Shown here: positions 1 to 41,395 of the stretch, piece by piece
How the letters are laid out: the number at the start of each line of letters is the position of its first letter
How positions within the stretch are numbered: position 1 is the first letter of the stretch
Source of the DNA: Parietichytrium sp. I65-24A
Taxonomy: Eukaryota > Sar > Bigyra > Thraustochytrida > Thraustochytriidae
DNA: 64,000 nucleotides
Direction: 5' to 3'
Assembly: GCA_012862575.1 (NCBI GenBank)
Contig: BLSF01000024.1
Span: 188,843-252,842 of the forward strand
Position numbers and translations under genes: made by a program
Notes under the pieces: model-generated
Databases searched by the model: none
What the model was told of the DNA's origin: nothing
Seen by the model: the letters and a program-made list of their open reading frames with translations, nothing else

Positions 1-3000
1 GCTTGCCAAATTGAATTGCATTCTCCATTGTTCGCAAGTAATTTGCGTCTGTCAATTTGCACACGGCAAGGTCATTTGGCCCCTCCATGTTTCGCAGCCA
101 TCGATTCGCCTGGCCTTGTGGGTCGATCATGAGCGGCCAACGCCTAGAATTGTCGAGAATAATTGCATTCTCGACGCTGTAGTCATCGATTGGAAGGGCA
201 TTGATCTGCCAAGTGCGAATTTTGACGGGGTCTCCAAGGGTGCGAACGAGATTCATTTCCTCCGGACTTGAGCACGGGATTCCCATCTTGATGGCATCCT
301 CGATCCAGGCTCTGGTGATTTCCCTCCTGTAAGTCACGGTGAATGGGCCGAGATACGCAATCACACCTGAACAGACAAGAACATTTCCGATGAGCTTGTC
401 GAGTAGTTCTGTAAGGCTGCTACGCTCGCTATTCCAGCGCACTTTTTCGCCACCGAGGCCAGAAATTAGCTTTTCTGCGCGGTCAAGCTTTGCTTGGCAA
501 TCATTCACTTGTTTTTCTAGATCGTCCTTGCGTTGCTTGCACTGGTCGAGCTGGCTCGCGAGTCCTGCTACTCGATTCTCCACTTTTGTAAGTTCGGCCT
601 GCTTTTCACGCAAGCCTGCCATAACAGTCTCAAACTCTTTCTCCGCTTCTGCAAGGGCGGCACGTTTGGGAGCCACGACTTTTGCGACGCGGTCGTACTC
701 CACCATCGCGCGTACCCAGCAGCACAAGCCATACGCGGCCCTGGATGCTTTTTTGATTTTTTCCGGATCAAACGCATCATCTTCCACGTATGTGGTCACC
801 TTTTGAATGATCTTTGGATCAATATTGTCCTTGTCGTATTCGATGAGAATGTTCAGTAGACGCGGGTCAGAAAGTAAGGACTTCTTCGCGGGTTCCCAAT
901 AGTCGTTTATCTTCTTGTTTTGGTCCGCAGGGTCCTTGATCTTGATTGGTTTCACGCCAAGCATGATACACATCGCTTCCATCACCAACTTGACGCCATC
1001 TGGAGGACTCTTCATAGACTTGACCTCGGTAATGTCATTTTTGCTCAGAGTATTGAGTGCTGCAAGGGCCGAGTCTAGGATTGGCATGGCCTCGGCAAGG
1101 TCTGCTTCGCATTCGTCCTTGATGCCTTTGGCGTGCGTCGCCTTCTCGTTCGCAAAGGCCTCTTCTTTTTTTACGACCTGCGCGATCTTATCAGCTTCAG
1201 TCTGCTCCTTCTCAACGGCCACCATCATCTCCTCCGTTTGCTTCGTAGTGCGCAAAAGCACGGGCTGCAAATCTTGCAGTTCCTTCTGCATGCCAGACAC
1301 TGCATCCTCTGTGAACTGGAGTTTCTCGAGACCAACATGGTAGCGCTTGCGTGCTTGCTCCACCTCGCTTCGCTTTGCAGTGAGCAGGTTCTTAAAGGTA
1401 CTGATGAGCTCCAAAAAGGAGGTCGGAGTCACGTAGTAGTATCGACGAAGTTCCTGCTCAAACCTCTTGGCATAAGTGACGGTACTGACGTGAAACTTTT
1501 TGCAAAGCTCGACGCAAACCTTTTTCAGTGTCGAAGCATCCGACACGGATGGGTCGGCGGGTGAGGCACTCGATGGCTTGTCTGTCTCTTCTTCCATCTG
1601 CGCCGCTCCATTCTCACCAGATGCCTCTTCCGATTTGACCGGCTCCTCCTTCGGCCGTGAGGTTTTTTCAAAGCTTACGCTATCGAGAAATCTTTCCGCG
1701 ACTGAGGTAAGGGCGTCTTGGGGCCACTCAGAGAACCAGTCAATCACACAGCAATTCACAAGTGAAGGAAACTTGCGCAACCTGTTCCTGAACGAATCCC
1801 CGACTGGACTGAAAGCCAGCACGATGTGCAAATTCATTCGAATTCGGTCAACAACAAAAGCCCACAACATTTCGTTCGTTTCAATGTTCCGCCTCTCTGC
1901 TTTAGCGAACGGGCGGGCAAGCTCGCAGATTTCTGCCTTCTCGTCTGCGGCGAGGAGGTTTGGAACTTCTCCTGAATTCAAAAGACTGTTGATGTCTTCG
2001 ACAAATGACTCGTACTTGATCTGAGGGTCGCTGAGCAAAAACACGGTGGACTGACCTTTTCCGCCTGTCATGGAGATCACTTTTCTGAGATCCGCGTACC
2101 AATCTGGAACACCGTAGGTTTTGCTAAGTTCGATCTGATAGACATCAAACCCGTGCATAAAAGCTGCAAGACGGGTTAGTGACTGGCGACCTGAGCCGCC
2201 CACACCAACGAGCAACCCATGACCTCCAGGGATACAGAGAATTCGATGAATGCGGATAGTGTGCTCCAGAGCATACAAGAACATCACCAGTTCCATTGGC
2301 TTTGGAGAAAGTTGATTGAATTGGCGAAGCTTGTCTTCGCAGAGTGCCTTGACGGCGCTAAGGTCGTGGAACTCGTCGTAGGTTGGAGTCGCGGCTTTGC
2401 CAAACAAAATCCTGCGCGCAGTATTCCAGTTTGCTTCGACACGCTTGAAAGAACTCGCTGAAGACTCGCTTGTGTCCGCTTTATCAGCAAACAGTTCCGC
2501 AAAACTTTTGCCAAAGTGTGTCTTGAGCGCAGGCGCGATCATTTCCCCAATGAGCTTGTTCCTGTCTTCGTCGTCGACAAGACGATCCCCGAACACTCGC
2601 AAACTCTCATGTACCCAAAGCCTCGTCAAAAGGTCTGCGTTATCGATAGGTTCAGGCGTAGAACCGTCCTCTGCTGATGCACAGGCTTCCGAGTCCGGCT
2701 TGATGGTCGCCAAAGTCATTCCCTGAATCACTCTGCTGAAATCCCTCAAATTGAACAGGTAGTGTGACTTTGAAGGTGTTGGAAGTAGCTTGGCAATGCT
2801 GGCCTTGTATAAGTCCAGAGTAGCCAAGACTGCTTTATGTCCAGTCGAAAGCAATCGTTCAGGAGCACTCTGCTTTGTTCCTAGGTACCACTCCATCAAG
2901 TTGCCAAATATCCTGATAAGGGTAGAGTCTTCCGCCTCAGCCACCCCGACGATATGGAAGTGCCTTGCGAATCGCGGAGAAATTGAATTTCTACCTCCGC

Positions 3001-6000
3001 CCGGTGGACCCATTGCACCAACCATTTGACAACCTTCGATGTGCTTGAAAGTAAGGTCTTTCATATCATACCATCCGCCGTACTTCAAGAATTGCCTCAA
3101 AAGTTCCAGCGGAGGCTGAGCGCCATACGTTTCGGGCTTTGGCATGTTGACGTCGTCGAGGAAAACCACAAGCTTCTTCCCTGCGGCTGGCCCAAAGACG
3201 CCTTTCTTCCTACGATCGAGTCTGGAGTCAACGATGCTCTGCACTTGCTGAGTGCTAGTCTGAGCAGAAAATCCAACCATCAAGACACCAAATTTATCTT
3301 GGTCGAGGCTGTGAAGCAAGTGCTGGTTCACATAGGCAGACTTGCCCGTTCCGGTGGGACCAACCAACAAGAACGAGTACTGACTCCTTACGGCGAGGTC
3401 GAGGAGAAATGTGTAACGAGCTGTGTCCTTGGTTGGGACAATTATGGAGTTGAACAGCTCGTTTGGTCCAATGTACGGCTTTGCGTCGACCAAGAGATCC
3501 CATTTCTTCCACATTGTATTTGTGCTGACACCATCTCCCGGGGACACGAAGAAATCGTAGACGAGGCCATCATTTGGGAAAGATTTGGTAATCTGCACAT
3601 TATCGTTCTCCGTGCCACTCTTCGCGAGCTCCTCACGGAGCGCAGCATCAAAATGAAAGCGGCTTTGACCATCCGCGCTACCTCCGATGGTCCAAACTAC
3701 CGAAAACAGAAACAACGACTCCAAGGTCTGTTTGTCGATTGCACTTCCCAGAAAGGAAGAGCGTCGACGGGCTTCCCTCTTTCCAGAGCGACTCATGCGA
3801 CGACTTTTGCTCGTAGATTTTATGCTGTCGTATTTTGAACTGCCTCCGTCGGCGCCATCTGCTTTTGACTTGTTCGACGCCGTGGCGATCCTGGTCAACT
3901 CGTCCTTAATCATAGCTCCAAGCACTTTTGTCAAACTCCGCACAAGCATCATTCCCGTGGTTGGGGTGATCTCCACGACCGACTTCCGAACAATGTCCAG
4001 GGCTGGGTCAACTATTGCTTCAAATAAGAGTCGAAGATGGGCTGCCGCCTCTTCCGGGAGCACAAGAGTTTTGAACCATGAGTCCACAAGTGGTCTCCAA
4101 CCGAGCTTTTCGGGTTGCATGTACACCATTCCGCACCTCGAAACTGTTGCGGGAGACGCAACTGCGAGATCCATTGGCTCAAAGATCATATTCATGTATT
4201 CCGACATGGCGATGATTTCTCCGCTCATCAGGCAAAGCTTTTTATTGTCATCGAGCACCGTGTTGAGATTTTCGATCCAAACTGCATCGACTGGCCCATC
4301 AAAAAGCACCCACTTTCTACGCATGTCAGTTGCTTTAGATGCGTCACGGTATGTTTTTGCCAAAATCCCATCGGACCACTCGTGCGAGACAGGGTCAAAA
4401 CAGCCGTACAGTTGACCCATTCCGACAGCTTTTGGATTCATTTGGTAGACATCCGTAGCAAGCTCATGATCGCCAAGCTTGCACGGCATTTGCTTGCGCT
4501 CCTGAAGCTCCGTGAGTGCTCCTTGCAAAACTTTCCACGACATTGTTTTACCCCCCAAAGGTGGACCCACGATCATTAGGCCATGACGAACAATAAGCAT
4601 CTCGTACAATTGAATAACTTTCTCCAAAAATGAGGGCACGGGCTCGATTTGCAGCTCGCTGATGGTTCCTTTCGCAGCATCCAGAAGATGGGCGTAATCT
4701 GGCGAGGGAACTGTTATTCCAGGGAACAGGTCTGAGATAATTCCTTGGAACAAAGGAATGTCCTCCGAGATAAACTTCGCAAGGTTAACATCGCAGATTG
4801 ATCGCAGAACTATGACGCCTTCGTTCTCATCCGGGAACTGGCGCTTGAGAGCGCCGGCGGCTGTCAAAACGCTGATGACCGCGCGCATTCCATAGTCGTA
4901 GTGGTCTTGCGAGGACAGCTGCTCGCTACACAACTTGTACGTGGTCACGATCTTATTGGCCAAGCTCCGAGAGTCAGAGTATCCATAACTGAAAAGAATG
5001 ATCTCTGCAATCATGCTGTAGTCCGGCACCATCATCGCTACCGTGCGAAAGAGTGCTTTGAGATTGTCGGGAAGCTCGGAACGTCCCGCATACCCGGGAT
5101 TCATTGTGATGAAAACGTTGGCTGTCCACCTCAACTTGATGTGGGTTCCTTCAAAGTCAAAATCGTGTACCCGTGCGGCGATCGCTTGTTGAATACTCGA
5201 AATTTGCTGAGCAATCACGGAAAGCACCTCCAGTTCAATCCGATTAAACTCATCAAAGCAAGCCCAGGCACCGCTCGAAGCCAAACCTTTGAAAAACTTT
5301 GCCATGGCCAAATAGTCTAAGCCATCAGAGCAGTTAAACACAACACACTGGCGAGCGAGAGCCTTGGCTAAATCTTTTGTTGTCTCTGTTTTTCCGGTTC
5401 CCGCAGGACCTTCTGGGGCGCCACCGTATTGAAGGTGCAGCGCACCCATCAGGGTTCGGTAGCACCTATCAGTGAGAGGCGTGATGACAAGCCTTGAGGA
5501 GTTTCCCAGGTACTCGTATCCATACTCCAGTTCAGAGGCAATGATTTTGACGTTCAAGGTGTCCTCCTCCCAGTAGTACCGCAATTGGCTTGTCCAGTCA
5601 AAATCATATTTGGATTGCACTTGGAGGTCGCAAAGTTGTCTTGTGACGTCTCTGGCGTGGACGTCAATTACCGCAAGAGCAGAAAGGGTTGCACGCTCAA
5701 GCTTGGATAAATTGCCTCTCACGAGCTTCACCAAACCGTCAAGCTGAGAACACAGTTTATCTACATACTCTTCCAGACCTTTTGTGCCACGAACGCCAAG
5801 GACCTGCTCCACTTCACGGGTCCAGAAAGTGGAGCCCACGGCGATGACACACTGACCGGGCCAGTTAAGAATCCATCGGTCACGTGGTTTCGATGGGTAG
5901 TCCGCCAGTGCCTGCTTTGTCATCATCTTGACAGTGCGGCACATTTCGTCTTCAAGCTGCAGTAGCCATTTCTCGACCGCTCCCTTGGCTTCTTCAGGAG

Positions 6001-9000
6001 CAATCGTCGAAGTCAGCTTGACGTGTTCCTGCTCAGAGCTGACCATATGGGTGATAATATTTTCTGATCCAGCGCCTTTGAATTTGAGCGCTTTTATACC
6101 TTCGAAACACTTTTTTAAGAAAGGTTGCACTCGTGTCGGATCCTTGGTCTCCGCCAAAATTTCCAAGAGCTCGTCATTCGAGAGGAAAAAGAAGCGGGAA
6201 AAGTATAGCCTCTTGGTTTCCAGGTACAGGGCCAGGCCTTTGTTGATCTCGTCCAAGTCAACGTTGAGTTCCTCGAAGGTTTCCTTCAATTTGTCAATTT
6301 TGGCCACTACAATGCATTTAGGATTCGAGTGAACCGATTGCATCACCTCGCGCCACGTTCTAGCAACCTTCTGAAACTTGCCACCTTCAGTCGGCATTTG
6401 CTTCATGATGTCTTCCGAGCTGAAGATAGGGTCCAGATACATCCAAGTGGCTTGCACTTTCAGCCACGCGTCAATCAAGCCTTGAGTGTACAGCAAAAAT
6501 GTCTCCCAAGACTGCATTTGATTGTCCACAAACTTGCAGAATGGGGAACCTCGCATCGTTTGAGTTTTTACGATATGATCATCGAGCAAAGTTTGCAACT
6601 CCTCAACGTTGGTACCTTGCAAGACATAGGTTCCTGTGTCTCTGTAGGCCTGCGAGGTGTACTCAAGACTTTGCCACTCGGCGGTCATCTTCGCGAGGGC
6701 CTTTTCGATTGACAACTCTTTGGCGGCACCTTCTGAAATTTGTTCCAGTTTCTCCAAATGCTGATGCACATCGAGCTCGATGAGCCTTGTAAGGCTGAGT
6801 TCATCGTCAGGTGACACAGGAAAGCCAAGCTCATCAGACATTTGAGACCAGTGACGCTCTCGCAGTCCATCGTTTGACATTGCTGCAATGAGAGGGAGCT
6901 GTGTTTTGAATTCATCAAGCCTGGCTTTGATACTATCCGCGCATGACGAAGCGGCAGGACTAACTTCTCTGAATGATTCAGTAAGTTTGACAGCTTGCCG
7001 AAACATGTTGGACACCTCGCGCTCGACCTCCTCCGCCTCCAGCGTGAAAATGACCCCATGATTCCACCGGTGGTATTGCTTTTGAAATCGGTCCGCCATT
7101 TTCCACAAAGACTCATAGGGCTCGAGAGCGCTTTCTACGTTCTTGAGCCGTTTGAATTCAGTGTGAACAAGACCCAACCTTTCTTCTTCTTCGTTCAACG
7201 CAAAGGCTCGCTGCTTTGCGGTCTCTATCTGATCCCTGGTGCTTTCCACTGCTCTAAGTTGGCTCTTTGTGTATCGCATGTCTCCCTTCTCTTTCATGTC
7301 CTCCACCATGGTCTCGATGGAGCCCAGTTCTTCATTAAAGGTATCCCGGTCCATCTTAAACTGTGCCTCCAATTTGTCTCGTTCTCTACGCAATTGATTC
7401 TGGGCGTCCTCGACAATGCGGTCGATCTTTCGAACCCAGGAAAATGTGACGCCCATTGGCTTCAAAAGATCCGCTCCAACATGCATCTTGTTTTTCAAGA
7501 GGAAGCCAAGCCTTTCTTCGATAGCAGAAACATCTCGAAGCAAATTCTCAAGCTCGGTCTCCTGAAACTCGAGAACGTACTGCTCGGCTTCAACGAGCTC
7601 CACGGAATCCTCTGGTTTCTTCACCAATACATTTGTCGCAGCTGTGAAAGCCTTGCAAACGATCAAATTACGATGGATGTTCTCCTGGGCGACGTGCTGC
7701 AGAACCATACGCGTGAGGTCTTCAGAGCTTTTGAACAAAACGTCGTTCAGATGTGAGCACTTGATCGTCTGAATCCCAAGCGTCACTTCGTCTTCAGTCT
7801 CGCGCCGCAATTTTTGGCTCAAAGAGTTGTACTGATCTATCTTACCCTGGAGGTTCTTAAGTGGCTGCTCGTTTGCAAGAAAAGTGGCGAGTAACTCTTT
7901 CTCGTTCAGAAGATAGCGGTACACCTCGTAGTCCGCGATGATTTGCTGGCACAACACATCGCTATCGTTGATAATTGCGTTGATTCGTTTTCGAATATTT
8001 GCGATGGCCTCTTCGTTGGTGGAAATGACAGTCACGTAAGCATTCTTTTGGGCAAAAGCTGTACCATACTCGTCCTCGTCCTCCTCGATGTGAGTCAGAT
8101 CTCCAGCTGTAGGTAGCCCGCTTTCACCAGCATCTTTGTTGTCATCGAGAAAACTCAGCGTCATTCCGATTCCTGCGCGCTCAATACGAACAACACGGTT
8201 CATGCATGTGGAGACAAATTCAATGACTCCTTCGACGACTTCCTGCACCTTTGCGCTAGATGTCTCAAAGGAGATGATGTTCTCCTCGGTATCCAAGTCT
8301 TCGCTGATTCGGAGGGAGTTGGTGAAAACGGAGCGCAGACTTTTCGTGACAGGAGTGGAATACGCGGCAGACTCCCCTGTTTCGTCAGCCTTGGCTTCAG
8401 AGATATTGATGCGGGCGAAGAAGCTCTCCAAACTCTGGAGCGACCTCATCACCAAATCACGAATTTGGCGAGCCATGAGTGTTGCTGCGCTTTCAAACAA
8501 TGCCTGCAATGTGGATTGCGAGAGACCAGCAAGTGTAGAGTCTTCCGAACTAGCGTCATCAGAAAAAAACTTGACGGCTGCGGGTTGCCACTGGTGCAAC
8601 AGCTTCTCGCGGACTTGCTTGGCGTGTTCAATCTGAGATTCGGCAAAGTCCTCCAGCTTTTGCGGGCTCCAGCTACTCTTGATGGCATCTTCATTGGTTT
8701 CTGGAACGCTGATGAAGAGGGAGTCTTCAAAGTTTCCCCACAACTCCAGCAGGCGGCCAATCAAAGGGTGCGTGAGATTTAATTTGTGCGAGAGCGAACT
8801 CCGCGCGCTAATAAAAGATGTCCGCCAATAATCTGGTGCGCAAAAGATGGCCCTCTCTGCTCCCCAGCCCCAGTCGAGCGCTTGACATCCGTCTGGAATG
8901 AAGGTGAATCCGAGCCGATCTCGCTCTTCCTTCCTCTTCAGGACATAGTCGACGGTGGCTTTCCTGACCGAACACTTGTAATCTTCTTCGACCTCCACTG

Positions 9001-10816
9001 TAATAGACCTCAAGAGCTCCTGCACGCTCGAAGATTTCGCACCATTCCTCTCGGAGGAAGCTCTGGCCAGCTCCGCCTCGTCTTCCTCCATTATGCACGA
9101 GGCCCCATCATCGTCCGGCCCGTTATCTCCACTCGTACCATCCGCATCCGCATTCGCATCCGCATCCTCGCCCTCTCCTTTTGAGGAGCCCATGGGTAAT
9201 TCCGCAATCTTATCCTGGGTTCCATTTGGAACTGGCAAGAGCTTGGCGACGTTGTGAAGCCAGGCTTGGCGAAAGGGAGCAATTTCTTGTGCGGGAACTC
9301 CGTTGTTGACATACCAAGCGTACCTCTCAATGAGAGCAAGGTGTTCCTCGTGCTCCTTGGACATCTTAGAGGGTGAATCTTCCATGCACCTCTCTATACC
9401 TCCTGGCCCCTCCCGTTTTCTTTGTTTGCTCTGATGAAAACTGTTAGCTTGTTCTAACAGGCTCTTTTGGGCGATGTGATCCAGACCTTTCCCTAGTCGA
9501 CGTTTTCTCTGCCTTTCGTCTCGGAGCTTGGAGTCCATGGCCTCTGCTTTGGCATTATATGGAAGGCGGTGCGGTAACGCTTCGCGAGGGGATTCTCTGG
9601 GCGTGGGAACATGGATATCAACAAGACCGACAACCCCGTCATAAGCCGCGCCACTCCCGGTTGATTTGGAGTTAGGCACTGGCTTAATTTGAATAGAGCT
9701 TGTCTGCGAATTGATAGATAAAGCTTGCGCCTGCGGCGAAAAGTTACTCGCAATAGTATCGGTCAACAGGCCTTCTTCCTGAGTGCCAGAGACGTTGACG
9801 GAAGCCTTCGTGCGCGCATACTGGTTTAATAATTGTGGATATCTCCGCTCCAGCTCAATAGATGTAACGAGTCGCTGAAGGCTCTTATCCCGCTCCATGG
9901 CCAAGAGAGGCACCGATGGACCGTTCCCTTCTTTGCTCTCCAGCACATGTGCGCGAGAATACCTCCTAGCTCTTGATGGAGTAGCATTATCATTGAAGCT
10001 CCCATCTGGGTACCACACAGTTTGAATGTTGGCAAAGACAGCGGAAGAACTCCGTCTCGGTGTTCGGTTCTGTCGGTTTGGAGATTCCCCTTTCCCGCTA
10101 CAAGCTTTGTCGAAAATTGGCGGCCTTGGAATCATGAGGACAGAAGGCGCCATTTTATTCTTCTTTGCCGATATCGTCCCGGACTCGTTGCTACTCCTGG
10201 CAGATAAACAACCGGTCTCCAGAGACGCTCTCGCTTCGATCCCGTCTTCGCTGCGCTCGCGAGCGGAAGATGTGACTGAGCTCTGCTCCCGGATTCGGAA
10301 CTGCAAGCGAACGACTCTCTGATTGGCAATAAGCGAGGCAAAGCCAAGGTCCAATTCTACCGTTTCCCCGGAACTGGCGTCGAATCCAAACCCATGAAAT
10401 ATCGCGTGGCACACAGCTTGCGCCATTTCACCAGCCTCACCGTCGCTGAGATCCGAGTTGTTGTTAAGCCATCTTTTACCGCCTGCCACAAAGTCCAGCC
10501 GCGCCGCTGCCAGCCCTTTCTCAACTGCACCATCGCCATTCACGACTTGGCCCACTTTCTCTTCATCTGCTTTCGCGAGCCCCCAGGTCTCCAGGAACCC
10601 GAACGCGGGCAGAAATGCCGGCAGGATGAGCTGCATTTTGGTGCCTTCTTTGAAGGCCACAAGTCCGGCTTCCGGAACTACGAATGGCACGCTAGCCAGG
10701 AAATTTTGCTGCATCCATGAACGCACGCCACGCCATACTGCGTCTGCTTGGTCCTTGCTCACACCTGCGCATTCTCCGTCTCTCGCCACCCACTTGAACA
10801 TATCTTCCACGTCCAT
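1..10816 (-). CDS. Axonemal inner-arm dynein heavy chain with N-terminal HU-like (CCDC81-type) region; 3' end outside window
   Basis: ATP-driven motor of the ciliary axoneme. The frame is open without a stop from ATG 10814-10816 to the window edge, about 3605 codons with no intron. Visible parts: HU-like pair (residues ~1-75 and ~120-175), disordered basic linker (~230-580), dynein tail and linker (~590-1750), AAA1 P-loop GPAGTGKT (~1802) with Walker B CFDEFNRIELEVLSV, AAA2 P-loop GPPLGGKT (~2084), AAA3 GPTGTGKS (~2487), AAA4 GVGGSGRQS (~2869), stalk coiled coils with the microtubule-binding tip (~3136-3460), and the start of AAA5 (~3478). Signatures such as PIFSSEDIMKQMP and GEVPNLLAADEK resemble the single-headed DNAH3/7/12 group. 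The P-loop of AAA1 normally lies near residue 1350 in that group, so the N-terminus is about 450 residues longer than usual. AAA6 and the C-terminal domain are off-window. No other in-frame ATG lies upstream before a stop near 10955. The dynein call is secure; the subclass and HU assignment are less so. Confidence 0.95.
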   Translation of the reverse strand, partial: MDVEDMFKWVARDGECAGVSKDQADAVWRGVRSWMQQNFLASVPFVVPEAGLVAFKEGTKMQLILPAFLPAFGFLETWGLAKADEEKVGQVVNGDGAVEKGLAAARLDFVAGGKRWLNNNSDLSDGEAGEMAQAVCHAIFHGFGFDASSGETVELDLGFASLIANQRVVRLQFRIREQSSVTSSARERSEDGIEARASLETGCLSARSSNESGTISAKKNKMAPSVLMIPRPPIFDKACSGKGESPNRQNRTPRRSSSAVFANIQTVWYPDGSFNDNATPSRARRYSRAHVLESKEGNGPSVPLLAMERDKSLQRLVTSIELERRYPQLLNQYARTKASVNVSGTQEEGLLTDTIASNFSPQAQALSINSQTSSIQIKPVPNSKSTGSGAAYDGVVGLVDIHVPTPRESPREALPHRLPYNAKAEAMDSKLRDERQRKRRLGKGLDHIAQKSLLEQANSFHQSKQRKREGPGGIERCMEDSPSKMSKEHEEHLALIERYAWYVNNGVPAQEIAPFRQAWLHNVAKLLPVPNGTQDKIAELPMGSSKGEGEDADANADADGTSGDNGPDDDGASCIMEEDEAELARASSERNGAKSSSVQELLRSITVEVEEDYKCSVRKATVDYVLKRKEERDRLGFTFIPDGCQALDWGWGAERAIFCAPDYWRTSFISARSSLSHKLNLTHPLIGRLLELWGNFEDSLFISVPETNEDAIKSSWSPQKLEDFAESQIEHAKQVREKLLHQWQPAAVKFFSDDASSEDSTLAGLSQSTLQALFESAATLMARQIRDLVMRSLQSLESFFARINISEAKADETGESAAYSTPVTKSLRSVFTNSLRISEDLDTEENIISFETSSAKVQEVVEGVIEFVSTCMNRVVRIERAGIGMTLSFLDDNKDAGESGLPTAGDLTHIEEDEDEYGTAFAQKNAYVTVISTNEEAIANIRKRINAIINDSDVLCQQIIADYEVYRYLLNEKELLATFLANEQPLKNLQGKIDQYNSLSQKLRRETEDEVTLGIQTIKCSHLNDVLFKSSEDLTRMVLQHVAQENIHRNLIVCKAFTAATNVLVKKPEDSVELVEAEQYVLEFQETELENLLRDVSAIEERLGFLLKNKMHVGADLLKPMGVTFSWVRKIDRIVEDAQNQLRRERDKLEAQFKMDRDTFNEELGSIETMVEDMKEKGDMRYTKSQLRAVESTRDQIETAKQRAFALNEEEERLGLVHTEFKRLKNVESALEPYESLWKMADRFQKQYHRWNHGVIFTLEAEEVEREVSNMFRQAVKLTESFREVSPAASSCADSIKARLDEFKTQLPLIAAMSNDGLRERHWSQMSDELGFPVSPDDELSLTRLIELDVHQHLEKLEQISEGAAKELSIEKALAKMTAEWQSLEYTSQAYRDTGTYVLQGTNVEELQTLLDDHIVKTQTMRGSPFCKFVDNQMQSWETFLLYTQGLIDAWLKVQATWMYLDPIFSSEDIMKQMPTEGGKFQKVARTWREVMQSVHSNPKCIVVAKIDKLKETFEELNVDLDEINKGLALYLETKRLYFSRFFFLSNDELLEILAETKDPTRVQPFLKKCFEGIKALKFKGAGSENIITHMVSSEQEHVKLTSTIAPEEAKGAVEKWLLQLEDEMCRTVKMMTKQALADYPSKPRDRWILNWPGQCVIAVGSTFWTREVEQVLGVRGTKGLEEYVDKLCSQLDGLVKLVRGNLSKLERATLSALAVIDVHARDVTRQLCDLQVQSKYDFDWTSQLRYYWEEDTLNVKIIASELEYGYEYLGNSSRLVITPLTDRCYRTLMGALHLQYGGAPEGPAGTGKTETTKDLAKALARQCVVFNCSDGLDYLAMAKFFKGLASSGAWACFDEFNRIELEVLSVIAQQISSIQQAIAARVHDFDFEGTHIKLRWTANVFITMNPGYAGRSELPDNLKALFRTVAMMVPDYSMIAEIILFSYGYSDSRSLANKIVTTYKLCSEQLSSQDHYDYGMRAVISVLTAAGALKRQFPDENEGVIVLRSICDVNLAKFISEDIPLFQGIISDLFPGITVPSPDYAHLLDAAKGTISELQIEPVPSFLEKVIQLYEMLIVRHGLMIVGPPLGGKTMSWKVLQGALTELQERKQMPCKLGDHELATDVYQMNPKAVGMGQLYGCFDPVSHEWSDGILAKTYRDASKATDMRRKWVLFDGPVDAVWIENLNTVLDDNKKLCLMSGEIIAMSEYMNMIFEPMDLAVASPATVSRCGMVYMQPEKLGWRPLVDSWFKTLVLPEEAAAHLRLLFEAIVDPALDIVRKSVVEITPTTGMMLVRSLTKVLGAMIKDELTRIATASNKSKADGADGGSSKYDSIKSTSKSRRMSRSGKREARRRSSFLGSAIDKQTLESLFLFSVVWTIGGSADGQSRFHFDAALREELAKSGTENDNVQITKSFPNDGLVYDFFVSPGDGVSTNTMWKKWDLLVDAKPYIGPNELFNSIIVPTKDTARYTFLLDLAVRSQYSFLLVGPTGTGKSAYVNQHLLHSLDQDKFGVLMVGFSAQTSTQQVQSIVDSRLDRRKKGVFGPAAGKKLVVFLDDVNMPKPETYGAQPPLELLRQFLKYGGWYDMKDLTFKHIEGCQMVGAMGPPGGGRNSISPRFARHFHIVGVAEAEDSTLIRIFGNLMEWYLGTKQSAPERLLSTGHKAVLATLDLYKASIAKLLPTPSKSHYLFNLRDFSRVIQGMTLATIKPDSEACASAEDGSTPEPIDNADLLTRLWVHESLRVFGDRLVDDEDRNKLIGEMIAPALKTHFGKSFAELFADKADTSESSASSFKRVEANWNTARRILFGKAATPTYDEFHDLSAVKALCEDKLRQFNQLSPKPMELVMFLYALEHTIRIHRILCIPGGHGLLVGVGGSGRQSLTRLAAFMHGFDVYQIELSKTYGVPDWYADLRKVISMTGGKGQSTVFLLSDPQIKYESFVEDINSLLNSGEVPNLLAADEKAEICELARPFAKAERRNIETNEMLWAFVVDRIRMNLHIVLAFSPVGDSFRNRLRKFPSLVNCCVIDWFSEWPQDALTSVAERFLDSVSFEKTSRPKEEPVKSEEASGENGAAQMEEETDKPSSASPADPSVSDASTLKKVCVELCKKFHVSTVTYAKRFEQELRRYYYVTPTSFLELISTFKNLLTAKRSEVEQARKRYHVGLEKLQFTEDAVSGMQKELQDLQPVLLRTTKQTEEMMVAVEKEQTEADKIAQVVKKEEAFANEKATHAKGIKDECEADLAEAMPILDSALAALNTLSKNDITEVKSMKSPPDGVKLVMEAMCIMLGVKPIKIKDPADQNKKINDYWEPAKKSLLSDPRLLNILIEYDKDNIDPKIIQKVTTYVEDDAFDPEKIKKASRAAYGLCCWVRAMVEYDRVAKVVAPKRAALAEAEKEFETVMAGLREKQAELTKVENRVAGLASQLDQCKQRKDDLEKQVNDCQAKLDRAEKLISGLGGEKVRWNSERSSLTELLDKLIGNVLVCSGVIAYLGPFTVTYRREITRAWIEDAIKMGIPCSSPEEMNLVRTLGDPVKIRTWQINALPIDDYSVENAIILDNSRRWPLMIDPQGQANRWLRNMEGPNDLAVCKLTDANYLRTMENAIQFGK

Positions 10817-11885: not shown

Positions 11886-14800
11886 ATGGAGGTGAGCGGC
11901 GCGGAGGCCGCTGCAATTCGATGCGTGTTCGATGCTTACGCTCATGGCCGGGGAGAACGCGCGAGAATGTCAGCCACGGAGCTGGAGCGCATGGTCCGCG
12001 ACTGCGGGCTGCCGTGCAAATTGGTAACGAGGACGATCTTCGAACGCTGCGGCTCGGGGATGGGCATGCGATTCGAAGGGTTCTTGCGAGCACTGGGCGA
12101 ACTCGCCGCTGCGGCGTATTGCGGACTGCCGTTCCATGAGGCTGTGAAAAGGACGCTGACGGAGCATGTATTTGCGCTCGCAAACGGTCCTGGTTGCCTC
12201 ACAACGAGGCCCGTGCGAGACGACAAGTTTGGCGAGGTTTCCACCATCTCCACCATTTCTACTAATTCTAAATACAGTGCGAGGGCTGAAGCTGAAGCTG
12301 ATGCTGTGGTCTCAGCACCATTATCGCCTCGAGAAGAGCCGGCCGAGAAAGCCACCGCGGAAAGTGGAAATAGCTGCCGCTTGGGTCTGGAGGAGCGAGG
12401 TGATGAGAATGAGGATATTCGGTCAGGCGGGGTTGACGAGAATAAAGAAGAACAAGACGTCGATGACAATGACGATGACGAGAAAGGGAAGGAGAGCGCT
12501 CAAGAGGTGGTGGAGTTGGATGGTAAAGTTGAGAATGAGGACGGGGAATGCGAGGCGGCGATTATTATTGATACGGATATGGTCGAAGATGCCGAGAGCG
12601 TCTCCACCACGTCCACATGGACCACCGGAACCAGACACACGGTCTGCACGGCGCATCTACCCTTGGAAGGGTCAGTGGTGGGTGGTCAGCAAGACGAAGA
12701 AAGCTGCCAAAGAGTTCGGCTCGATGAAGAAGCTCTCACGGAGCTCGAGTCGATTTATGATAGTTATGCTAAGCACTGGTGCGTTGGAGAAGGACGAAGT
12801 CGACCGAGGCGCTTGCTTCGCACGAGCTCAGAGCATTACCGGGGAAAGGACTTTAAATACTCCCGTGCGGATTTGTATTCAAAGAAAAGTATTTGTCAAA
12901 GCCGGATCCAAACGGAGAGTCTAATTCGCGTGCCTACAGTGTTCACTTGGAGATCTAAAATGTGCTTTGGAGGGTTTCACTCCTTCGCCAATGACTTTCG
13001 TATTACCTCTTCCGAGGCAACTATCAGGAAGGCTTTTGTAGCTGCGCTCACCTTGACGAGGACCTCAGCGACCCAGAATAGGCAGTCCAGAGAAATTGTC
13101 GACATTTCAGCGCAAGGCGCAGAGGAGCATGAGGCGGCTATTGCGTTGGGCAGTGAAGAGCTCTACCATTTTGAACTTAACTTTTCGCAATTTTTGAGCG
13201 CCGCATGTACGCTAGCCGTGGAGAGGGAGCGCGCCAAAACGAACTTTTCGTCAAGCCGATACATTGCGTTTGGGGATGCCGTTGACGGCCTTTTCAAAAA
13301 CTGCCTGAAAATGTTCGCTTCGTCTCGAAAAGCGCCTTGCAGCACAGTGGAAATATCTTGCTGCTGTGGAGCCCCTGAAAAGCTTGTCCACGTCAATCTT
13401 TCGATGTTTCCGTTCGAATGTCAAACCGAGGAGGTACAGCGCGTCATCGAAGGCGGCATAGAACCTCTCCGAAACGTTTTCGTGTATTACTGCGAACTCT
13501 CCTGCTATGAGGGAAATTCGTCCGTCGTACCGCCATGCCAGGGGGGCAGATGCGGAGCGGCGTCGCCGTTACTTGCGGAGGATAATTTTGTACGTTTCGC
13601 AAAGCAATTCGACCTCTGCCCACTGCTTTTAAGCGAGACGCAGATCCGAGCCCTATTTGGTGCAGTCGCGAGGGAGCCATTGCCGCAATCCTGGGCGCGG
13701 GAGTCAGAAAGCACTCTACATCGCGACAACAGGGAGGTTGGGACTGCCGAGGTTGATCGAAGAGTGTCCTTTCCTCAGTTCCTCGCGCTACTTTGTTATT
13801 GCGCGCTAAAAGGGCTTTCCAAGTATCCTTATGCGTCCACATGCAGCACTTCTCTGGAGAAAGTCCGGCTCTTGTTGCAACGAATGCAGTTGTCCGACAA
13901 GATGAGCGAGTTGTTCCCTAATATGAACGTTTGCTTTGTCGACTTTGCTGGTTCTATGGAGCCCGCGTTGTTAGGAAGCCCTGCAACGCTACCCTCGCCC
14001 CCACGATACGAATCTTGCTTTCCTGATACAGCTGGGCTCGCAAGTCCTCCTCCTCCGCCTCCTCCTGTAGAAGTTGACCATATTATGACACCTCTGCAGG
14101 CTGTGCAAGGGCTGGAGTATATTACACGGCTGTCGGAGAAGTATTCAGGTTCGCTCCGCTCCAGCGGAAGCGAGACCGACGAATTTGCATCTGCTCCGCG
14201 CCGTGCCCGGCCATCCTCGAGCCCAACACCGTATACCGGCTCCAGTTCCCGTAATCGCCACCCAGTGGGAAAGAACATCAGCTCCAACTACCAGCGGGCT
14301 CTTCGAACGCAGCTTCGAAAGGATAGTCCGGCCCCCTCATCCGATGAACCGCTGCGCCCCAGCCAGGTATTAAATCGCCCTTCTTCCAGTCGCTCCCGTC
14401 CCAGCCGAGCCTCGTCCTTCACCGACTCCTGCTCCTCCGACAGGAGCAAAGCCAAGCGTTGCCCAGCGCCGAAAAAGGCCGCCGCGATAACCAAGGGCCC
14501 AGTACGCTCATTCTCCGCGAGCCAAATGCAACTCAGTGGCGCGAAGCAAAGGCACGTGGCGCAAATGCGCGGTTCTCTCTCGCCGGACGTCTCCGTTCCT
14601 AATGTTGTGGACAGCTCAAACTCGCCTCCGCCGATCCCGTGGGCCGCTCGCCCCGTTTCGCACAGCCTTGCATCGGAAAGCCATGTGCACGAGGAGCTGA
14701 AAGAGGGCGAGGATGAGCCGGGGCTCTCTCGAAAGAATGTGGCTGTAATCCCGCCGGACCGGGGCTACGTCTACGGCAATGGCGGCAAGAAGCACAGCGG

Positions 14801-15173
14801 CAATACAGTCGGCAGTGACAGTGGCAATGGCGAGGACATCGACATCGACATCGACATCTTCCACAACCACGACCATGACCATGACCATGACGACAGCGGT
14901 TTCGGCAAAGCTCTGCGCTCCGTGCTCGGGTCGCACTCTCTTTCAGGAGACGCGCACGCAGTCGTGGCCGCTCGCCTGCTGGAGCTCAGTCGCAAGATCC
15001 GCCAAGCCCATGTCCCTTCGCATGCTTCGCATACTTCGCATACTTCGCACCCTTCCCCTGTGACCAGCGCCACCTCCAGCTCCGACGCTGGCTTGGCAGC
15101 CAACGCTTTCGCATATGCCAGTGCCAGTGCCAATCCCAGTCCCAGTCCCAGTGACAAGGCCACTCACTGCTAG
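11886..15173 (+). CDS. EF-hand-like repeat protein with disordered Ser-rich C-terminus
   Basis: Single exon of 1095 residues starting at ATG 11886. I recognise no named orthologue. Several divergent helix-loop-helix units of EF-hand type recur: residues ~8-75 (VFDAYAHG followed by an FEGFLRAL helix), ~285-390 (SIYDSYAK then GGFHSFANDF), and ~525-650 (NVFVYYCELS then FVRFAKQFDL and FPQFLALLCY). Canonical DxDxDG calcium loops are not evident, so calcium binding is doubtful. Between the first two units lies a long acidic segment (~135-280). From ~700 the chain is low complexity: a P run, SRSRPSRASS patches, then ID, HD and SH repeats encoded by simple DNA repeats. The gene is head-to-head with the dynein, which hints at a ciliary role, but this is inference. 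The stretch around 12780-12940 fits the repeat pattern poorly and could hide a small intron. Confidence 0.75.
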   Translation: MEVSGAEAAAIRCVFDAYAHGRGERARMSATELERMVRDCGLPCKLVTRTIFERCGSGMGMRFEGFLRALGELAAAAYCGLPFHEAVKRTLTEHVFALANGPGCLTTRPVRDDKFGEVSTISTISTNSKYSARAEAEADAVVSAPLSPREEPAEKATAESGNSCRLGLEERGDENEDIRSGGVDENKEEQDVDDNDDDEKGKESAQEVVELDGKVENEDGECEAAIIIDTDMVEDAESVSTTSTWTTGTRHTVCTAHLPLEGSVVGGQQDEESCQRVRLDEEALTELESIYDSYAKHWCVGEGRSRPRRLLRTSSEHYRGKDFKYSRADLYSKKSICQSRIQTESLIRVPTVFTWRSKMCFGGFHSFANDFRITSSEATIRKAFVAALTLTRTSATQNRQSREIVDISAQGAEEHEAAIALGSEELYHFELNFSQFLSAACTLAVERERAKTNFSSSRYIAFGDAVDGLFKNCLKMFASSRKAPCSTVEISCCCGAPEKLVHVNLSMFPFECQTEEVQRVIEGGIEPLRNVFVYYCELSCYEGNSSVVPPCQGGRCGAASPLLAEDNFVRFAKQFDLCPLLLSETQIRALFGAVAREPLPQSWARESESTLHRDNREVGTAEVDRRVSFPQFLALLCYCALKGLSKYPYASTCSTSLEKVRLLLQRMQLSDKMSELFPNMNVCFVDFAGSMEPALLGSPATLPSPPRYESCFPDTAGLASPPPPPPPVEVDHIMTPLQAVQGLEYITRLSEKYSGSLRSSGSETDEFASAPRRARPSSSPTPYTGSSSRNRHPVGKNISSNYQRALRTQLRKDSPAPSSDEPLRPSQVLNRPSSSRSRPSRASSFTDSCSSDRSKAKRCPAPKKAAAITKGPVRSFSASQMQLSGAKQRHVAQMRGSLSPDVSVPNVVDSSNSPPPIPWAARPVSHSLASESHVHEELKEGEDEPGLSRKNVAVIPPDRGYVYGNGGKKHSGNTVGSDSGNGEDIDIDIDIFHNHDHDHDHDDSGFGKALRSVLGSHSLSGDAHAVVAARLLELSRKIRQAHVPSHASHTSHTSHPSPVTSATSSSDAGLAANAFAYASASANPSPSPSDKATHC
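14839..14892 (+). repeat. In-frame hexamer repeats encoding ID and HD runs
   Basis: GACATC units followed by CATGAC/CACGAC units translate to repeated Ile-Asp and then His-Asp inside the EF-hand-like protein. A further CATACTTCG array (about 15018-15050) encodes Ser-His-Thr repeats, and CCCAGT units lie near 15132-15152. These look like simple-sequence expansions within a disordered tail. Confidence 0.8.
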
Positions 15174-36886: not shown

Positions 36887-39800
36887 TTAATTTACAAAGT
36901 CTTCCACGGCGATTTCGTCAAGGTCTGCAGCCCTGGACCGCCGCTGATTTGAGGTTGGTTTGGGGTTTGCTTTCGAGGAGTGCTGCTTCACTGAGGACCC
37001 ACGAGAATCTGGAGAATCGCTGCGCTTGCTTTTCCTCCGATTTTGCTTTTTAGCACTCGAGCTCTCGACAGAGCTACGAGTGTGGCTCAAGCTCGTATCC
37101 CCCGAGCGCGGCGACGAAGTTCGTGATCGCTCTGACGATCGCTCCGATCTACTCATCGATGCTTCAGACCTAGCAGACACACTTGGGGAGCGCAAGCTTC
37201 TGCTTTCTGAACGAGCACTTGATCGCGCAGACTCGCTCCGCGATCTGGAGGTTGACCGCGATCTTGAACTCGATCTAGACCTAGATCTCGATCTTGAACT
37301 CGATCTAGACCTAGATCTCGATCTTGAACTCGATCTCAAACGAGAGGATGAACGCCGCGAGCTAGATCCGTCTTCGCTTGAACTTGCGCTCGAACTGGCT
37401 GAAGAGGTGCTTCGAGCGCTGGAACGCTCACTACCAGAAGCCAAGGATCTGTCAGACTCATCAACTTTTCCTCTGCGAGTACGAGAGCGCCCGCGCTCGC
37501 TGCCTTTAGATCCTTCAGATCCTTCGGATCCCTTAGAGCTAGCACGAGAGCTGACGGAGCGTCTGCTCCCAGAAAATGCGCTACTCCTTTCTGACTCTGA
37601 TTCTGACTCTGTCCCCGACCTCGTTTCTGATCCCGATTCTGTTTCTGAGCCAAGCTCGCTTTGACCACTTCTGCTTCTGTTGCTACCCGTTCTCTTCGAG
37701 ACAGGTGTGGCACTGGCTGATCGAGAAAACGAGGATCTAGAACTCTTGGAACCTGGAGAGATTGATAGCGGCCGTGCATCCCCACTTCTAGACTGACTGA
37801 CGATGCTGGCCTTGCGAATCATGACTGGTTGGGCCTGGCGCGGAGCACTGCGGAATCCATCTTTGTCACCGTGTTTTGGCCCTTCGTCTCGGCTTGGCAC
37901 ACTCTCTCTTTCGCTACTAGTATTGACATTGTCGTCATCATCATCATCTTCATCATCGTCTTCGTCTTCATCTTCGTCCTCATCTTCGCCCTCCTCTTCG
38001 TCTAAGACGCGGTTCACCTCGTCTCTAAACCACTCTTTCCACTCGGCGGAATCAAAGTCAAACGATAACGCCGAGCTCACAGCTTCCCTGATTGTGCGGT
38101 ACGTGGCGTCGCTAGAGCTCTCGCGGACGTGATCCTCCAGTTTAGCGCGCACAAACGACACAAATTCGACTGGAGCGAGACTTGGGCCAGGGTAGTTCTC
38201 CAAAACATTCTTATCTTCGTTGTCCTGTTTGTGTAGACTCGACGAACCTTGTTTTGCTTGGAAACGCATCGCGTCATCAGTTGTCCTGGTTTCCTGGTTT
38301 TGTCCAATTGGCTCTCCGATATTGAGGCTGGTATCCTCGTTTTCCGTCTCCGTGTCGTCTGGCTGTACGATTTCTTCTTCTTCGTCGTCATCCTCTTCGC
38401 TTCCATGACTTCCAAGTTTATTGGGCTGCTGAGAGATGGTTGCTTCCGCGCTTTTCTTCTCACGCTTCGAATCTGCCTTATTCTGAGACTCAAGGATGAG
38501 CCACTGGAGTGCATTTTTCCAGTCTCTTGCAAGGTTAACGTCCTCGCACATCAATTCAAACGTATCACGGCCGTCGCGATTGTGGAATTTGAAGACGTGC
38601 TTATTAGACTTTCCTAGGGCATTTTTCGCCCAGCCCGAGAACGATTTTTTGAAGGATCGGTCATTCTCGCCTGCTATGCCATTGGCCAAGTCCTGATCTT
38701 TCGGGTAATCTATTTTTGTGATTGCCCAAATGGGTGTTGCCTTGGCTCGAGGATTCTTTTCGTCGCCTTTAATATAGTGAATTTGCTGTAAATTGTCGCT
38801 CACCCAGATATACCTTGGCTGAAAGCCCCTCACGGAGTTCATCCCGCGCCTCATAAAAACCGCTCCAGACTTCAACAACGCTTCAAACGTTTCGCTCGTT
38901 GATTCTGTCCCACTCGAAAGATCCCGTACTTCGACGTTATGCTGCTGATCTGATGCGTCATGTGAGGGCACAGCTTTTGGAAGACCGGCAGAGTCACTAT
39001 ATTTCAGAGCACTTTCTCCTACTTTTGTTACGCCGCCTGCGTCACCAGCCTCCTCTGCACTTCCTGCTCTCTGCGGCTCGCCCAAGCTCTTCTTGTCCTT
39101 TTGCACAGTCGAAAGCGCACGTTCCGATCGAACTGCTTCTGCTATCTCGACTACTTGTGAGTTATTATTCTTGACCTTGACGGTCTTGGGAACTGGTTTC
39201 TCGATGACACTAGGGTCAGTGGTGTTCGAAGATTCCAATTCCGATGGAGCATCTTTGATATCGATCACTTGTGGAATTTTGTCCGCCGTAAACCTCTTTC
39301 GCGACGACTTTTCGGGGGTGCTCGACGACTTTTCCTCTACGTCTTCCACTTTGTCCGTGCTCAGCGACTCTAGCACCTTCGGAATAGCGCTGCTCTCCCG
39401 CTCTTTGGTGGCATTTTCGGCGACGCTAGATGCAAGCTTCTGATGCGTTTTTCGGAGGACTCCAAGCTCAAAACTGAGCTTGTCGTAGGCCATCTGGAGG
39501 TCTTGTTTGCTAGAGTTGAGTTTTGCAAACTTCTTTTCGTCTTCCTTGAGCTGTTCTTTTAGCGAATCCCGCTGTGACATGATCTGAAACAGCTTTCGCT
39601 GAAGCTCTTCATTTCCTTCATTTGATGCCAAGTGTCTCGAGTGTTGCTGCTCTTGCTCGAAATGTTTGGACATGGACTGCTCGATGCCCTCCAATGTATT
39701 CTCAAGCTGTTCGACTTTTGCTTTGTACTCGTCTCTCTCTGCAGAAACTTGAACCAGTTTTTGTTGCATCATTTTAAGCATCAGATTGTGTTTGTTGTCT

Positions 39801-41395
39801 GTCTCTGCCTGACCTTGTGCCCTTAGAGTGCATAGCTTGGCCATCTGATCTTTGAGCATGGCGCGAAGCTTGCGATCCATAATCTCTGCGTCCTTGTGCT
39901 TGGACAAATACTTTGCGTGTTCAATTTCTGCCTTCTGAACCCTTTCGAGCCCAACCTTGACCTCCGCAGACGCTATCGCAAGTTGCTGTACGAGATCTTT
40001 CTCTTCCTGTTGTAGCGAGCCCATTTGCGCGTGCATATCAACATGTGCGCGATCGTATCCGGCGAGTTGCTGCATCATTGACTCGGTTTCAATGGACATC
40101 CGTGCGGCATTTTCTCTTGCTTCTTGCGCTGACGCTTGCGCTTGTCGGACGCTGGATTTTAGATGTTCGATTTCCTTCTTTGTACTGGTGATATATTCGG
40201 AAGCCTTGGATTCTTCGGAAACCTTATCCAGCATCCGAGCTTTCAACGTGGCATTCACCTCGTCAAGTTGCTGAATATGGGTCCGAAGTTTCACAATGGC
40301 TTTCTCAGCCTGAGTTCGAGATTCCTGAAGTTCTGTTCGTTTCATCGCTAATTCATCCATGGCGCGTTCGCTTTGTTGAATTTTCTTTTTGCTATAGTTG
40401 ACCTTCATCACCAAACCCTCATTCTCTTTCTGTAGCTCTGCTAGTTCTTCATTCAACTCAGCCTGTCGGGACTTGTTTAGTTTCACTGCGCTCTCGAGTA
40501 CGCGAACGCTTGAACATATCTCCTCGCGCTCGGCAATTCGACCTCTTTTCTCCAGGTTGGACTCTTGAACCAGAAGATCTTTATGTCGATTTCGCAGTGA
40601 GTTCCTTCTTGTCACCTCCCGCAAGATCATGTCGAGAGTGATTGCCTCGATCTTGTCGTCTGAGTCATCTCCCCATGCTTGCGGTCTCCGATTTTCGTCT
40701 GAGGCAGGGTCACCAAATCCGTCTCCAAGATCAACGGCGATAATAGATGCATTATTTCTAAGAAAGGTAATGAAGGCATGCTTTGCCCGCATGCCAAGCT
40801 GGTTCTCCCCAAGCCTAAGAACGCGAAGTACGCGATTCTTTTCACATGCCTTTGCTAGACTCTCTGCTCCTTCGTCAAAAATGTAGTTTTTGGACAGGTC
40901 TAACTCTTCAAGTGTACTATTTATGGTGAGAGTGACAGCGAATGACCGAGCTCCTGCATCCCGAATGCTATTCCCGCTTAAATTGAGCTTCTTGAGGCTG
41001 TGGTTCGATCGAAGAGCTTCTGCAATGGCGACTCCACCATCGTGCCAAATATTGTTCTCGCTTAGATCAAGTATCTCCAGATTCTGCCAACTCAACACGC
41101 CGCTCAGTGCCCTTGCTCCACCACAGTCAATTCTATTTCCTGCACAACTCAATACCTTTAGTACGGCCCGTCTCTTGCCTTGACAGAGAGCATTTACCAA
41201 ATTCCTCAGGCTTATGTTCAAGCGCTTCGGCTTGCTCTCGAACAGCAGCGCGCGGTCCAGCGCCAAGTGCGTCAGGTTATCAATGCGAGACACCAGTGAC
41301 ACCAGAGCATGCAACTCGTGGGCCGAGAGCAGCTCTTTCACCCTGATCTTCTCCAGATCGCAAGAGCGACCGTCTCCCGCGGCCGCGCGGTGCAT
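36887..41395 (-). CDS. LRR, coiled-coil, PH-domain protein with Arg/Ser-repeat tail
   Basis: Single exon, 1502 residues from the first ATG at 41395. In order: leucine-rich repeats of the NLRC/RanGAP type (residues ~75-205; NLEILDLSENNIWHDGG and LEELDLSKNYIFDEGA), a long coiled coil (~265-720), a Ser/Thr-rich linker, a PH domain (~838-968; GFQPRYIWVSDNLQQIHY, ending in ARDWKNALQWLIL), an acidic run (~1132-1155), and a tail rich in RS dipeptides (~1245-1480). LRR plus coiled coil plus PH suggests a membrane-associated scaffold, perhaps cortical or cytoskeletal; the RS tail is unusual for such a protein and could be phosphorylated by SR kinases. I know no family with this full arrangement. The frame continues upstream through GCAATC repeats to a TTG, but those residues would be repeat-encoded RL runs, so they are left out. 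Confidence 0.85.
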   Translation of the reverse strand: MHRAAAGDGRSCDLEKIRVKELLSAHELHALVSLVSRIDNLTHLALDRALLFESKPKRLNISLRNLVNALCQGKRRAVLKVLSCAGNRIDCGGARALSGVLSWQNLEILDLSENNIWHDGGVAIAEALRSNHSLKKLNLSGNSIRDAGARSFAVTLTINSTLEELDLSKNYIFDEGAESLAKACEKNRVLRVLRLGENQLGMRAKHAFITFLRNNASIIAVDLGDGFGDPASDENRRPQAWGDDSDDKIEAITLDMILREVTRRNSLRNRHKDLLVQESNLEKRGRIAEREEICSSVRVLESAVKLNKSRQAELNEELAELQKENEGLVMKVNYSKKKIQQSERAMDELAMKRTELQESRTQAEKAIVKLRTHIQQLDEVNATLKARMLDKVSEESKASEYITSTKKEIEHLKSSVRQAQASAQEARENAARMSIETESMMQQLAGYDRAHVDMHAQMGSLQQEEKDLVQQLAIASAEVKVGLERVQKAEIEHAKYLSKHKDAEIMDRKLRAMLKDQMAKLCTLRAQGQAETDNKHNLMLKMMQQKLVQVSAERDEYKAKVEQLENTLEGIEQSMSKHFEQEQQHSRHLASNEGNEELQRKLFQIMSQRDSLKEQLKEDEKKFAKLNSSKQDLQMAYDKLSFELGVLRKTHQKLASSVAENATKERESSAIPKVLESLSTDKVEDVEEKSSSTPEKSSRKRFTADKIPQVIDIKDAPSELESSNTTDPSVIEKPVPKTVKVKNNNSQVVEIAEAVRSERALSTVQKDKKSLGEPQRAGSAEEAGDAGGVTKVGESALKYSDSAGLPKAVPSHDASDQQHNVEVRDLSSGTESTSETFEALLKSGAVFMRRGMNSVRGFQPRYIWVSDNLQQIHYIKGDEKNPRAKATPIWAITKIDYPKDQDLANGIAGENDRSFKKSFSGWAKNALGKSNKHVFKFHNRDGRDTFELMCEDVNLARDWKNALQWLILESQNKADSKREKKSAEATISQQPNKLGSHGSEEDDDEEEEIVQPDDTETENEDTSLNIGEPIGQNQETRTTDDAMRFQAKQGSSSLHKQDNEDKNVLENYPGPSLAPVEFVSFVRAKLEDHVRESSSDATYRTIREAVSSALSFDFDSAEWKEWFRDEVNRVLDEEEGEDEDEDEDEDDDEDDDDDDNVNTSSERESVPSRDEGPKHGDKDGFRSAPRQAQPVMIRKASIVSQSRSGDARPLSISPGSKSSRSSFSRSASATPVSKRTGSNRSRSGQSELGSETESGSETRSGTESESESERSSAFSGSRRSVSSRASSKGSEGSEGSKGSERGRSRTRRGKVDESDRSLASGSERSSARSTSSASSSASSSEDGSSSRRSSSRLRSSSRSRSRSRSSSRSRSRSRSSSRSRSTSRSRSESARSSARSESRSLRSPSVSARSEASMSRSERSSERSRTSSPRSGDTSLSHTRSSVESSSAKKQNRRKSKRSDSPDSRGSSVKQHSSKANPKPTSNQRRSRAADLDEIAVEDFVN
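37260..37337 (-). repeat. 30-bp coding tandem repeat in the RS tail
   Basis: About two and a half copies of a 30-bp unit, each encoding ten residues of alternating Ser and Arg. Confidence 0.85.

Follow-up and report, generated by a model that had tools for sequence, protein, structure and literature searches.

One of the dynein genes of the thraustochytrid Parietichytrium sp. I65-24A carries, at its N-terminus, a predicted pair of HU domains of the type found in CCDC81, a ciliary microtubule protein. The gene lies on the minus strand of a 64,000-nucleotide stretch of contig BLSF01000024.1 (assembly GCA_012862575.1, positions 188,843 to 252,842 of the forward strand), which we call the window and in whose coordinates features are given below. 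Judged by its sequence, the encoded protein belongs to the DNAH3/7/12 group of single-headed inner-arm axonemal dynein heavy chains. It is not fully understood how each of these dyneins comes to occupy its own position along the 96-nm repeat. What we observe is a sequence and a predicted fold, and the explanation that we consider best, with a probability of roughly 0.6, is that the CCDC81-type tandem HU would serve this inner-arm dynein as a protein-binding docking head. The fusion of head and dynein itself looks real and old, since similar fusions are present in some relatives.

The tandem HU head and its reading frame

The first ATG of the gene is at 10816, with an in-frame stop upstream, and the frame is open from there through window base 1; extended into the neighbouring part of its contig, it comes to 4,665 residues. 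Residues 1-3605 were scanned against Pfam, and residues 3606-4665 are taken as an ordinary dynein C-terminus. Codon scores, with preferences trained on the motor part of the gene, were, in bits per codon, +0.21 in the head (residues 1-175), +0.05 in the linker (residues 176-590) and +0.25 in the tail (residues 591-1223) when the gene's own frame was read, and negative in the five alternative frames in head, linker and tail alike, as they were in all six frames of the 964 bases upstream of the ATG. Across the 590 codons of head and linker there are no stops in the dynein frame versus 11-27 in the other five, and GTRAGT, the only intron donor pattern looked for, occurs in neither head nor linker. 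Long open frames are usual for the dyneins of this genome, given that 18 of its 20 distinct places matching DHC_N2 (22 match rows) have an open frame of more than 4,000 residues. The original prediction, that the dynein frame runs open into an N-terminal head, is thus borne out by the upstream stop, the codon score and the lack of an internal stop.

In the predicted structure the head consists of two successive HU folds (helix-helix-three strands, twice). HU1 (residues 1-80, 10577..10816) has helices at 3-12, 21-40 and 72-78 and strands at 45-47, 51-57 and 64-70, whereas the elements modelled in HU2 (residues 106-175, 10292..10501) are helices at 109-117 and 125-147 and strands at 153-156, 160-165 and 168-173. 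Those motifs of the first reading that were checked lie where they were said to lie: VWRGVRSWM at 27-35, LILPAF at 63-68, ETVELDLGFASL at 151-162, RVVRLQF at 167-173 and, beyond the head, RPPIF at 231-235. Pfam gave one weak match, to HU-CCDC81_euk_2 (PF18289) at residues 136-173 in HU2, with an E-value of 0.02 for a 250-residue piece and 0.012 for a 185-residue piece (15.3-16.0 bits versus a gathering cut-off of 26.1), and HU-CCDC81_euk_1 (PF14908) was not reported for this head in the Pfam scans. Weak matches to these families mean little alone: among 14 prokaryote control genomes PF18289 matched weakly in seven (none above cut-off) and PF14908 in six (one above). We therefore relied on the fold and on profiles built without the window sequence.

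Relatives for such profiles come from a set of 5.8 billion proteins that was searched with residues 600-3605, and of 2,188 scored candidates the best 120 are considered here. Nine of them carry the head (see below), and an alignment of ten heads, with that of the window first, was made. Scored against profiles from which it had been left out, and compared with the best of 200 shuffles of itself, the window head reached 95.7 bits (best shuffle 9.5) with its four closest heads (P0003-P0006), 25.2 bits (1.8) with the five others (P0007, P0010-P0013), and 31.0 bits (5.1) when the two CCDC81-type proteins of its own genome were added to those five. The ten-head alignment, window included, matched these two proteins in a profile-profile comparison with 98.3% probability over 138 columns. 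Homology of the head is thus well above chance. Scanned singly at E <= 1, nine of the ten heads matched PF18289 (best 1.9e-9) and seven matched PF14908 (best 1.5e-15). Six heads were rescanned singly: P0011 and P0012 exceeded both cut-offs, P0010, P0004 and P0006 matched below them, and P0003, whose head begins inside HU1, gave no Pfam match at E <= 0.1.

Profile, structure comparison and related proteins thus agree with the claim of a CCDC81-type double HU in frame with the dynein. Of the checks that the original prediction proposed, structure prediction modelled the tandem HU fold, the search of relatives found head, linker and tail in the same order in nine separate records, and the Pfam profiles gave a weak match in HU2 without reaching the curated cut-offs of PF14908 and PF18289.

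One may also consider that two genes share a frame by chance, or that an intron lies in the linker, the HU part being a separate protein. The linker does have the lowest coding score, and, to judge from P0005 of Hondaea, records of this sort do sometimes join genes wrongly; but the absence of stops and of a GTRAGT donor, the constant order in nine records and the conservation, as protein, of a motif at residues 326-366 make this very improbable. Another scenario is that the head is a decayed leftover, in which the fold has been kept and the binding surface lost in this lineage. Its identity to the other nine heads is indeed low (15-35%), it falls below the Pfam cut-off, and P0003 has no Pfam match at all. 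Nevertheless, P48, G51, P66, G144 and G160 are nearly invariant and F173 invariant in the ten heads, that of the window included, and codon usage in the head is in frame, so that we regard decay as improbable. Finally, the head might bind DNA as bacterial HU and IHF do. That identity was rejected, as both the long DNA-grasping arms and the basic charge are lacking: the modelled hairpins are only a few residues long and the net charge of the window head is -8. Going by the model, DNA binding by this head is most unlikely.

Motor class, linker and tail-tip motif

Within the residues scanned, Pfam recognises DHC_N2, AAA1 to AAA4, the stalk and the beginning of AAA5, and no DHC_N1 at E <= 5. DHC_N2, the linker of the motor, occupies residues 1224-1636 (5909..7147, E 2.9e-136), AAA1 (AAA_6) residues 1765-2091 (4544..5524, with the P-loop GPAGTGKT at 1803), and the stalk with its microtubule-binding region residues 3158-3505 (302..1345, E 2.8e-42); AAA_9 starts at 1..217, where the gene runs off the window into the adjoining DNA. 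Two further P-loops, GPPLGGKT and GPTGTGKS, are present. The best matching PDB chain is DNAH7 of 8j07, an entry that we take to be human (8j07_g2, 2594 bits); DNAH7 of 9fqr ranks next, ahead of two 8glv chains (Chlamydomonas), and chains of DNAH3 and DNAH12 come after these. In a quick tree built from the window sequence, 35 out of the 120 relatives considered and 17 paralogs from the same genome (53 rows in all) the window falls inside a supported group (99) of 38 rows with animal DNAH7 and DNAH3 records, a group shared by two of the paralogs (L011 and L020), the other 15 being outside. Among the matches listed, the nearest relative labelled to species is Hondaea fermentalgiana (Labyrinthulomycetes), with 61% identity over residues 600-3605. 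As a side observation, 9fqr_Xx, 9fqr_Hl and 9fqr_I3 match dynein heavy chains over more than 1,000 residues and carry the names malate dehydrogenase 1B, radial spoke head 9 homolog and CFAP57, which look swapped in the entry or in the copy used.

Between the head and the tail lies a linker (residues 176-590, 9047..10291) rich in Ser, Ala, Glu and Arg, which contains the RPPIF motif and, going by its composition, is probably mostly disordered. It also holds a conserved tail-tip motif at residues 326-366 (9719..9841), YPQLLNQYARTK ... TDTIASNFSPQAQAL, with the pattern PPLL..Y.RT..A ... SD.IG..YSP.A, which is common to headed relatives and to headless fungal and holozoan DNAH3/7 records; it occurs in DNAH3-type dyneins, and also in DNAH3 of 8j07 and in Chlamydomonas 8glv_Kg. 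A loose form of the pattern matches 15 of 121 sequences, P0011 and P0013 being left out by the way it is worded, and P0005 since only the first 1,100 residues of that record were scanned. A profile of 12 sequences (11 chosen from these 15 rows, together with P0011) matched residues 67-126 of the DNAH3 chain 8j07_g3 (E 5.6e-12), a 9fqr chain labelled "putative malate dehydrogenase 1B" (E 5.8e-12) and 8glv_Kg (E 4.2e-4), after which came one unrelated row at E 0.49; the linker region of the window, used as a single sequence, had no match in the PDB.

In blastp against the 120 listed relatives, the dynein tail (7148..9046) begins to align with DNAH7 near residue 597, and in animal DNAH7 records typically some 180 residues precede that point. 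The first reading of the gene had counted about 590 extra N-terminal residues: an extra part does exist, but the count is too high, as some of what was counted belongs to the old dynein tail, given that the motif at 326-366 is found in DNAH3. With both the DNAH7 residues and the shared motif taken into account, we estimate that roughly the first 250 residues are peculiar to the headed form.

Distribution and history of headed dyneins

Head profiles matched nine of the best 120 relatives, P0003-P0007 and P0010-P0013, all within the eleven top-ranked, and did not match the other 111. The headed records share the order head, linker, tail with the window gene. In P0007 only HU2 is present, at the extreme N-terminus, and in P0005 (Hondaea by its label) the head starts near residue 760; the latter, a model of 5,305 residues, has mannosidase and rhodanese-type sequence ahead of the dynein, which probably reflects an erroneous merging of genes. 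Judging by how the two records are named, we take P0011 ("tig00000555_g2144.t1") to be from Cyanophora paradoxa and P0012 ("Rmarinus@m.2764") from Rhodelphis marinus. Direct searches with the head are less productive: with residues 1-590 none of 2,373 scored candidates in the same protein set matched at E <= 10, and with residues 1-480 of P0010 only P0010 itself and P0013 did. Because head queries miss relatives, and the relatives considered are the best 120 of 2,188, the wider distribution is undersampled. A scan of viral contigs found no relative.

Within the genome of Parietichytrium, DHC_N2 is found at no fewer than 20 distinct places, that of the window included. The 5' stretches, of about 6.5 kb, of the other 19 showed no head with three head profiles at E < 0.1 (one row had E 0.67), and the window head, searched against the whole genome, matches only itself. 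One of the three profiles was built with the window and both CCDC81-type proteins, and its recovery of these is no test. At E <= 1 PF14908 and PF18289 match just two other loci. The first, on contig C9 (L001:484-2001 (-)), encodes a 505-residue CCDC81-type protein whose HU pair is above both Pfam cut-offs and which also matches Bac_DNA_binding (3.7e-6). The second, on contig C51 (L048:573-4706 (+)), encodes a protein of 1,377 residues in which three calcyphosin-like EF-hand units come after a CCDC81-type HU pair. Its EF-hand region matches the doublet proteins RIB57, RIB22 and CFAP161A and kinetoplastid DMIPs, and the protein is another HU-pair fusion in this genome.

For the history of the fusion, a more careful tree of 40 rows was made by removing 12 own paralogs and P0015 from the quick tree. 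Eight headed sequences, that of the window among them, and the short models P0008 and P0009 form one supported group (100/99), and P0011 and P0012 stand beside headless opisthokonts (91/80, not firm). Gains and losses of the head require two changes on the quick tree and three on the careful one. Forcing all headed rows, P0008 and P0009 together (12 rows) is 30.87 log units worse (approximately unbiased test, p-AU 0.036); since the group was named in the light of the earlier tree, since the models of P0008 and P0009 may be truncated and since branches are long, we treat this mild rejection of a single headed clade as a hint. One old gain followed by losses is the simplest account for the few lineages sampled, two gains being the alternative. 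Tentatively, and with some doubt, since much depends on the organisms assigned to P0011 and P0012 by record name, one may suggest that the HU head was ancestral to one inner-arm dynein before the lineages of the window, of P0011 and P0012 and of opisthokonts split, and was lost in opisthokonts; the tail tip would then have had the HU pair as one anchor and the PPLL...YSP motif as another, and DNAH3 would have kept the motif alone.

Three other features of the window may be mentioned here: a 1,095-residue frame adjoining the dynein, with no Pfam match at E <= 1e-5 (11886-15170 (+)), a leucine-rich repeat protein of 1,546 residues (36887-41527 (-)) and a WD40 protein of 1,421 residues that has a winged helix like that of NWD1 (50610-54872 (+)).

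Proposed role and known systems

In the reading that we prefer, the tandem HU would be a head that binds protein rather than DNA, joined to the tail by a presumably mostly disordered linker within which a second, older tail-tip motif sits; by analogy, the head would be a leashed anchor by which the dynein tail is held. The solved chains that match the head profile come from doublet-microtubule structures. Tetrahymena IJ34 is described as a CCDC81 homolog that stabilises CFAP52 (PMC10105768), and is placed in both the axoneme and the basal-body core (PMC11961760). Because of these matches and of this location, any docking site would more likely be axonemal than at the basal body. The basal-body location of IJ34 also fits an alternative in which the head acts before or outside the axoneme, in preassembly, intraflagellar transport (IFT) or as a basal-body or cargo adaptor, rather than in docking at the 96-nm repeat; a cargo-adaptor role together with Dynein-VII was reportedly proposed by Burroughs and colleagues in 2017. 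We consider this unlikely, as the matching CCDC81-type chains derive from doublets and since a monomeric inner-arm dynein, being a built-in motor, is not known to carry cargo.

Several observations weigh against a docking head of CCDC81 type. Pfam alone leaves the window head below cut-off, and a profile of the two CCDC81-type proteins of the genome on their own gave no signal (4.4 bits, the best shuffle reaching 5.3). As net charge lies anywhere between -8 and +8 in the ten heads, little can be argued from it for the family as a whole. The named animal and fungal dyneins of the DNAH3/7/12 group among the matches listed are without a head, so that docking as such does not require one. Furthermore, IJ34 and CCDC81B are described as microtubule inner proteins, whereas dynein tails lie outside the A-tubule. 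A doublet-lumen location for a dynein-borne head is thus unlikely, and the surface that it would bind cannot be the same site, those proteins being luminal and the dynein tail outside.

The statement that no dynein with such a head had been described is probably wrong, as the precomputed Pfam labels of the search give P0011 a PF14908 domain and P0012 domains of both HU-CCDC81 families. Writing on the HU/IHF superfamily in Cell Cycle in 2017, Burroughs, Kaur, Zhang and Aravind reportedly suggested that the CCDC81 HU clade may help to organise centrosomes and, with Dynein-VII, serve as a cargo adaptor. In the literature searched for CCDC81 or HU together with dynein we found no account of the fusion, the text of that paper being outside the search. 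The window dynein is a new, divergent case of a fusion that had itself probably been noticed before, and its value as a discovery is tempered by that likely earlier report. Even so, a doublet-microtubule module at the tip of a dynein tail offers a handle, since the head could be removed or moved and the position of the dynein scored, and the second motif, common to DNAH3, is a candidate anchor that may bear on human cilia.

Compared with known systems, the window gene resembles DNAH7, DNAH3 and DNAH12 in having DHC_N2, AAA1-AAA4, the stalk and the start of AAA5 and in lacking DHC_N1, and it shares its tail motif with DNAH3; it differs in its HU head, the profile of which matches no dynein among PDB chains at E <= 1 and none of the other 111 relatives considered. 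CCDC81 (sea urchin sperm, 8snb_1K) and Tetrahymena CCDC81B and IJ34 are without a motor, whereas here a dynein heavy chain carries the HU pair. With respect to CCDC81-type proteins (PF14908, PF18289) that pair is divergent, and in contrast to P0011 and P0012, which exceed the cut-offs for both HU domains, it passes neither. Another motor with an unrelated N-terminal domain is the third outer-arm heavy chain (Chlamydomonas alpha, Tetrahymena gamma), whose N-terminal kelch/Ig region serves assembly (PMC12338079); that chain differs from the window dynein in the fold of its extra domain, in its dynein class and in associating with another heavy chain.
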